Positions 1,639 to 2,034 of a DNA stretch of 35,205 bases are shown in pieces. Below the pieces are notes generated by a model that ran no database searches, was not told where the DNA came from, and was given only the letters and a program-made list of their open reading frames with translations. Origin of the DNA: an uncultured Spartobacteria bacterium (GTDB lineage: Bacteria > Verrucomicrobiota > Verrucomicrobiia > Chthoniobacterales > UBA6821). Positions within the stretch are counted from its first letter, which is position 1; every line of letters starts with the position of its first letter. The position numbers and the translations under genes were made by a program. The DNA is taken from assembly GCA_903858595.1 (NCBI GenBank), contig CAIOJL010000061.1:1-35205 (forward strand), given 5' to 3'.

Positions 1639-2034
1639 GGGAAGCGCTGATTAAATCGCCTTGAGGCCGTTGCGGGAAGCCGTAGCGGATGCGAAGCAAC
1701 GACCGGGCAAGCCATGGGCCGCACAAGCCAGCCGTCCCAATAGATGTTTTGGCGCGCATCCCCATGCGGGCTGTAAGCGCGAAGCCAACACAGCCTCCGG
1801 CTCTATTATCTCCGCAACCGCGTGGGCTGAGACCATTTGGCCGTTTTGCCTCGTCGTCTCCCGACGACCTCGTCCTTCGGACTGCTTCGCAGGCTTCATC
1901 GTCTCTCCCGTGACTCGATGTTCCTGCGTTGCTTGCTTGGGCAAGACCCCAAGGGTATTGCCGCTGCGCTGCACGCCTTGGAAAACAATCAAATCCTCTT
2001 CAGCGACCATCATGGGATTTAATCAGCGCTTCCC
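1639..2034. mobile_element. MITE-like element with perfect 19-bp terminal inverted repeats
   Basis: The left end, gggaagcgctgattaaatc (1639-1657), is the exact reverse complement of the right end at 2016-2034. The 396-bp interior has no transposase-like frame. It carries one copy of the interspersed repeat (1681-1719) and several tiny perfect hairpins (1851-1892). I see no target-site duplication in the flanks (tata on the left, caac on the right). This is best read as a non-autonomous insertion element moved in trans by a transposase elsewhere, or an old solo remnant. Confidence 0.7.
1681..1719 (+). repeat. Interspersed repeat, copy B inside the MITE-like element
   Basis: These 39 bases match 4180-4218, at the end of ligA, at 34 of 39 positions. 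The shared core is gcgaagcaacg followed by ccgggcaagcca. Its presence inside the inverted-repeat element suggests that the same mobile family seeded the other copies. Confidence 0.65.

Follow-up and report, generated by a model that had tools for sequence, protein, structure and literature searches.

A geneless mobile element beside ligA in an uncultured Spartobacteria bacterium, interpreted as a non-autonomous transposon in which a conserved folded core of DNA is combined with transposon ends of various kinds

Introduction

As described in the sources cited, bacterial MITEs are mainly IS-derived (PMC10969869), measure 70-300 bp (PMC3733652) and give rise to transcripts that form stable stem-loops (PMC2229807). 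Closest to the element reported here are MITE239/293, MITE700 and BrickBuilt of Porphyromonas gingivalis, which in their published description are likewise short and geneless, have ends resembling those of resident IS5-family elements and retain no transposase remnant (PMC4596501). Beyond the traits given in that description, the present element has a covarying Y-shaped core, a narrow length range, a sequence module and homologous cores under unrelated ends. ERIC, NEMIS/Correia, RUP and YPAL are also small mobile repeats with long stem-loop transcripts and, in several cases, TA termini; they are described as 100-200 bp units forming one stem-loop from paired ends (PMC2229807), whereas the element here carries two arms on a terminal stem, measures about 276 bp and is found phylum-wide. 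The CIR element of Caulobacter has two arms and a linker, a phylogenetically conserved fold and a motif exposed in an arm; by its published description it measures about 110 bp, contains GANTC and shares only some traits with MITEs (PMC2229807). Target duplications, a terminal stem and clear terminal repeats set the present element apart from CIR. IS1272 (IS1182 family) is reported to replace stem-loop targets, and its transposition has been proposed to depend on stem-loop DNA (PMC5678879); in contrast, many copies here show YTAR duplications, and IS1272 may offer a parallel at most. The RAYT-associated REP/REPIN sequences are described as palindromes of 20-40 bp that bear a GTAG or a CGTC tag at one terminus (PMC3733652). 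Membership in this class was rejected for the present element, given units of about 276 bp, ends such as GGGAAG, GTGT, GGAG and others, and direct YTAR duplications in the window's genus. In the literature outside subscription journals, no report of the element was found.

The window is a stretch of 35,205 nucleotides that forms contig C61 (CAIOJL010000061.1) of a draft genome of 2.35 Mb in 242 contigs. A preliminary description, made from its letters, had pointed to a MITE-like element, which lies between a phosphoesterase gene and ligA.

Results

A composite MITE copy with perfect terminal repeats

The perfect 19-bp inverted ends that had been claimed are exact reverse complements over all 19 bases, and the repeat extends to 34 nt at 79% complementarity. 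They form the sole perfect 19-base inverted pair spaced less than 600 bp in the window, and no such pair within 600 bp occurred in any of 60 first-order resampled windows. The absence of a plausible gene from the 396 bp was borne out as well: two open frames lying inside or overlapping the element, at 1661-2095 on the plus strand and 1651-2013 on the minus strand, matched no Pfam family at E<=0.001. The stretch 1639-2034 is confirmed as a MITE copy (Table 1). The canonical unit is 276 bp long, and the window copy reaches 396 bp because of two foreign stretches in it. The G+C content of eight copies of the 276-bp unit was 53-61%, this property being treated as a usual and not a defining trait of MITEs.

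Table 1. Coordinates of the element, its parts and the flanking genes in the window
Feature	Position	Strand	Remarks
MITE copy, composite, 396 bp	1639..2034	+	covariance model R1, 115 bits; genome matches
Left terminal inverted repeat, 19 bp	1639..1657	+	
Right terminal inverted repeat, 19 bp	2016..2034	-	
Canonical unit part 1, left terminal stem	1639..1679	+	matches 276-bp copy of contig C43
Foreign stretch replacing 5' side of arm A	1680..1751	+	dispersed short repeat inside, about 1679-1718
Canonical unit part 2	1752..1847	+	3' side of arm A, mini-hairpin, start of arm B
Arm B insertion, about 73 bp	1848..1920	+	related sequence at C55 and C160
Canonical unit part 3	1921..2034	+	remaining arm B, right terminal stem
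Calcineurin-like phosphoesterase gene, flanking	57..1136	-	
ligA (NAD-dependent DNA ligase), flanking	2115..4184	+	

Copies and target duplications

Both genome searches proposed in the preliminary description revealed many copies. The 19-bp end matched 45 places in the genome at <=3 mismatches (0 for the reversed pattern), and the whole element matched 55 places, many of them partially. Copies with both ends delimited in the window's genome measured 396, 276, 275, 477, 164, 145, 56 and 278 bp; together with 39 copies from the genus, these eight made a set of 47 two-ended copies, one of which lies at a contig end where its flanks cannot be judged. At locus L254 the left end is missing.

Identical flanking 4-mers were found in 22 of the 47 copies, and 21 of these were YTAR, compared to 10 of 2530 in the control. 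YTAR is the favoured target of IS5-family elements. Beyond the window's genus a duplication was seen in 16 of 95 elements, a test in which CTAG alone was effectively visible because TA/CTAG is indistinguishable from a prolonged inverted repeat. A six-frame test scored 21 of 47 copies as insertions inside genes and is uninformative in G+C-rich DNA.

The unit folds into a Y with covarying pairs

Folding involves the full length of the 276-bp unit and produces a Y, in which a terminal stem (consensus columns 1-30/254-284) carries two arms (arm A, columns 31-137; arm B, 147-253) with a short hairpin between them (138-146). The fold was assessed on an alignment (A1) of 32 of the 47 copies, picked by length (270-282 bp; actual lengths 275-279 bp) and aligned without the use of structure at a mean pairwise identity of 83.5%. 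Over 93 pairs, 96.2% of the cells were paired, compared to 90.7% in shuffled and 37-42% in slid alignments. Pairs changed on both sides numbered 29 of 93, against 18.0 in shuffles (0/500) and 2-9 when slid, and the changed cells numbered 153 compared to 46.1 in shuffles (0/500). Shuffling loses relatedness, and the structure had itself been obtained from the aligned copies, so the count of pairs changed on both sides weighs most. The window copy departs from the fold in arm A, part of which has been replaced.

A coding function of the core was considered and is unlikely. Among the 32 unit copies, 25 have stops in all six frames; the remaining seven have the third plus frame open throughout, not one frame stays open across the whole set, and the three open translations that were scanned matched no Pfam family at E<=1.

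A module at a fixed offset in each arm

In most elements each arm contains the words AAGGCG...CAACGC, arm B on the opposite strand, so that the element is dyad-symmetric. With at most one mismatch per word, the module was found in arm A of 121, arm B of 106 and both arms of 102 of 127 elements (32 from the genus and 95 others), whereas the same elements reversed gave 3, 5 and 0, respectively. The start of AAGGCG lies 55-58 nt from the end on its own side in 106 of 121 cases for arm A and 93 of 106 for arm B. The 95 other elements were not selected by length, and 80 of them measure 265-285 nt; they were collected with the covariance model R1, built from the window's family, and the shares for module and length are upper estimates, the fold and module counts of this wider set being biased upward. 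In the phylum-wide set, mostly 265-285 nt long, the whole body forms a Y in which the terminal inverted repeats are one stem. A transposase or a protein of the host may read the module, whose distance from the ends is fixed.

Homologous cores lie under unrelated ends

Within the genus, blast detected the unit in 11 of 15 genomes besides the window's own; six family f5 genomes held fragments of it, which brings the total, the window genome included, to 18 of 97. Of 213 genomes in the order, 52 had an R1 match at E<=1e-4, among them 11 from the genus; at that threshold 5 of the 16 genus genomes had no match, and the element is therefore dispensable to its host. Among 387 genomes sampled evenly over the phylum, 13 matched at E<=1e-6: two of the genus (one being the window's own), six others of the class and five from other classes. 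The listed phylum matches were almost all full length; the exceptions, which are not two-armed and full-length, came from G466 (one match, 165 nt) and G417 (two matches, 151 nt each). Loci were examined at 40 of the places from the blast listing and 60 from the order-wide R1 listing. Copies in the records of Spartobacteria bacterium RH-27jun17-232 (L173, L181) scored 316-319 bits with R1.

The terminal sequences of these relatives are mutually unrelated (GTGTCCTGTC, GTGTACCGTCTCC, GTGTTGTGTAACC, GGAGACTGTTGAAATACTG, GAACCTATCCC, GGGAACCTCTAAAAATTGG, GGGTGTGTTTTAAAATT and others), and the end types among them include GTGT, GGAG and GAACCTATCC. A structure model may score any palindrome well, and homology was therefore also tested by sequence only, with the ends removed. 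An nhmmer profile built on sequences of the window's genus and of family f5 was applied to 70 other loci and found 47 at E<1e-3, compared to none of the 70 reversed sequences. All 47 fall among the 54 loci of the phylum; the other seven gave weaker matches or none. Across families and classes, a core of about 220 nt with paired arms can be recognised by sequence under terminal repeats that change completely, and it would appear that the core was refitted with the ends of different transposases as lineages diverged. In family f5, the open frames at ten single-end loci with the GTGTACCGTCTCC end, several of them truncated elements, were read by eye and revealed no transposase; the proposed refitting with the ends of other transposases is therefore based on the end sequences.

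Two elements searched against plasmids gave no match, and two core patterns had no exact match in viral contigs. In genome G025 of family f5, the end GTGTACCGTCTCCTAAATC occurred 92 times at <=3 mismatches (control, 0), with many pairs on one contig about 265-290 nt apart, which may reflect a recent burst.

An 18-nt form of the end, GGAASCGCTGATTAAATC, was found in at least 120 stretches, with several phyla named among the 80 matches listed. R1 at E<=1e-5 matched 5 of 24 genomes reached through the listed GGAASCGCTGATTAAATC loci. Clostridia MAGs (L193 5682-5843, L191 1057-1217 and the copies of G607) hold one-armed elements of 161-162 nt with the same IS5-type ends, and AAGGCG...CAACGCA lies in the arm at the same offset in L193 and L191. 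The modular arrangement may extend to this one-armed form; the profile search gave this no support, with none of 16 Clostridia loci found at E<1e-3.

Pairing that seems to be kept in DNA, and what else could keep it

If one RNA strand were selected, G-U should exceed A-C mismatches on that strand. Counted over strand-neutral pairs, which are those predicted from both strands, four groups together gave 96 G-U and 113 A-C cells: 8 and 21 in the window's genus, 46 and 42 in family f5 (38 of 41 kept), and 16 and 18 and 26 and 32 in two f9 groups. By columns, the window's genus had 15 A-C and 6 G-U. A count over plus-strand pairs only (60 G-U, 31 A-C) was biased by the folding of one strand and was replaced. 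Because no overall strand bias was found, the complementarity seems to be maintained at the level of DNA and not of one RNA, and the fold would then be used as DNA, in the form of a hairpin or a cruciform.

The lack of an overall strand bias also fits a fold that is a by-product, in which template switching or gene conversion keeps the inverted-repeat arms complementary without selection and the MITE is an ordinary one. Homogenisation of the arms would also yield compensatory changes without strand bias, and the terminal repeats do tend to change together (at columns 15/270, A-U in 17 copies, U-A in 11 and unpaired in 4). We regard this as a real possibility that falls short of being probable. 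It leaves unexplained the partly unpaired module in both arms and its distance from the ends, the length of 265-285 nt held by most elements, and an alignable core under ends that cannot be aligned. A function of the fold is favoured because module, length and offset are conserved as well, and the data hint that the conserved shape itself matters.

A structured RNA made from one strand, such as a hairpin that stabilises an mRNA or is processed by RNase III, a role put forward for NEMIS, would suit the very low energies of folding (37 of 38 elements fall within -129.6 to -184.5 kcal/mol), the covariation in the fold and the RNA roles that PMC2229807 describes for other bacterial MITEs. The mismatches in the window's genus do lean to the minus strand; the other three groups are without that lean, however, the total over the four groups does not follow it, and the module of arm B lies on the other strand. 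Such an RNA is unlikely. A known RNA family was rejected, as no Rfam family reached its gathering score in the window. At E<=1, four loci gave only a tRNA and nothing on the elements, and 12 further loci gave tRNAs and sub-threshold matches, the only one on an element being MIR399 at 27 bits compared to a gathering score of 57.

A resident IS5-family element with similar ends

The preliminary description had predicted an active transposase with the same type of ends elsewhere in the genome. No complete IS copy is readable in the draft assembly, and the IS is known from its end junctions. Its left end was found at eight junctions, five with GGGAAACGCTGATTTAATC and three with GGGAAACGGTGATTTAATC, which has one more change; the right end was found at four, two with GGGAACCGCTGATTAAAGC and two that begin AGG. 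The flanks of the eight left ends all differ and the IS runs off the contig in each, the pattern to be expected when assembly collapses a repeat. From the transposase, 221 residues were read; they matched NF033581 (IS5 family) at 249 bits, with a cut-off of 140, and the Pfam families DUF772 and DDE_Tnp_1, while the score against the IS1182 model (94 bits) was far under the cut-off of 270. Compared to the ends of the window MITE, the IS ends have 2 of 19 bases changed, and in some copies 3. The prediction stands for the presence of an IS5-family IS with ends of this type, and has to be corrected for the differences between the ends.

The element would be a non-autonomous DDE-type MITE moved in trans, whose ends the IS5-family transposase would recognise and insert at YTAR. 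Judged from these similarities, the resident transposase probably moves the MITE. Terminal repeats of the same type would also be left if the MITE were an IS5 copy that had lost its middle. When the MITE was compared to 742 nt of the left side and 390 nt of the right side of the IS, the sequence in common at E<0.001 was limited to the terminal 20-21 nt at either end, and homologous cores lie beneath other ends. Such an internal deletion derivative is very unlikely, and an origin of this kind from the resident IS was rejected because the match is confined to the ends.

The copy at the ligA site

Empty sites in close relatives, which the preliminary description had proposed to look for, were found. 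ligA is present in 14 of the 16 genus genomes, own included, and in the two nearest ones (G012 and G004; ligA 86% and 87% identical) the same intergenic region lacks the element. Upstream of ligA, none of the 12 orthologous loci for which DNA on that side was available matched the MITE. A copy on contig C111 is 99% identical to the window copy over the first 209 nt, foreign stretch included, and is flanked by matching TTAG; this sub-lineage therefore moved after it acquired the stretch. The window copy itself has no target duplication (flanks ATAG and CCAA), unlike the 21 of 47 family copies with a 4-bp YTAR, and the word recent therefore rests on its relatives and not on its flanks. With this reservation, the recent movement claimed at first agrees with the identity to the C111 copy and with the empty sites, and a recent arrival at the ligA site is supported by these comparisons. 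A fixed, non-mobile intergenic feature of ligA is practically out of the question, being refuted by the 55 places in the genome, the empty sites in the two closest relatives and the lack of an upstream match in the orthologous loci. The case that the preliminary description had set against its own reading, a single copy at the same site in all relatives and no matching IS, is ruled out.

Neighbouring features

The interior of the window copy does share a repeat with the end of ligA, as had been noticed: GCGAAGCAACGRCCGGGCAAGC occurs at 1691-1712 and 4190-4211, and also at 1245-1266 with 2 mismatches. It has 32 matches in the genome at <=3 mismatches (24 forward, 8 reverse; control, 0) and is a dispersed repeat family separate from the MITE. 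A stretch similar to GCGAAGCAACGRCCGGGCAAGC sits elsewhere inside the MITE copy of L134.

Upstream of ligA, at about 1503-1624 on the minus strand, lies a block conserved in the genus (11 rows aligned, one being the window with its flanks joined; two other orthologues were left out), and the MITE adjoins it on its upstream side. Its minus strand contains TTGGCAC-N5-GTGCTT, altered in the window, which we take to be a sigma54-like motif, followed by a long hairpin (GCAGCCCGGTCG...CGACCGGGCTGC) and then a T run. The block is a candidate small RNA with a terminator.

At L058 (contig C66, 1228-1300) a MITE end leads without a gap into the start codon, ATG, of an open frame, acyltransferase-like by eye (GAATAAATCCCATGAGCCAACTAAAA...), and the MITE remnant may supply the start region of this frame.

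Discussion

Taken as a whole, the observations are best explained by a composite MITE that is mobilised by an IS5-family element and has a conserved folded DNA core found with different ends, and we consider this explanation highly probable. The element is read here as a non-autonomous transposon whose conserved folded DNA core has been fitted with different transposon ends. A further step would be to see in it a modular class of transposons, in which a selected, folded dyad core with arm modules at a fixed offset swaps ends between transposases, possibly with structure-dependent transposition of the stem-loop replacing kind; this is put forward tentatively and is doubtful at present.

The element stands above a routine MITE in that a conserved Y core, a fold unseen in the preliminary description, is shared under unrelated ends across the phylum. 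Bacterial MITEs are commonly viewed as IS remnants with arbitrary filling, whereas here the filling is kept better than the ends. If the fold is selected, experiments can ask whether a DDE transposon is helped in its movement or its tolerance by the DNA hairpins within it, and how a geneless element may outlive its transposase by taking new ends.
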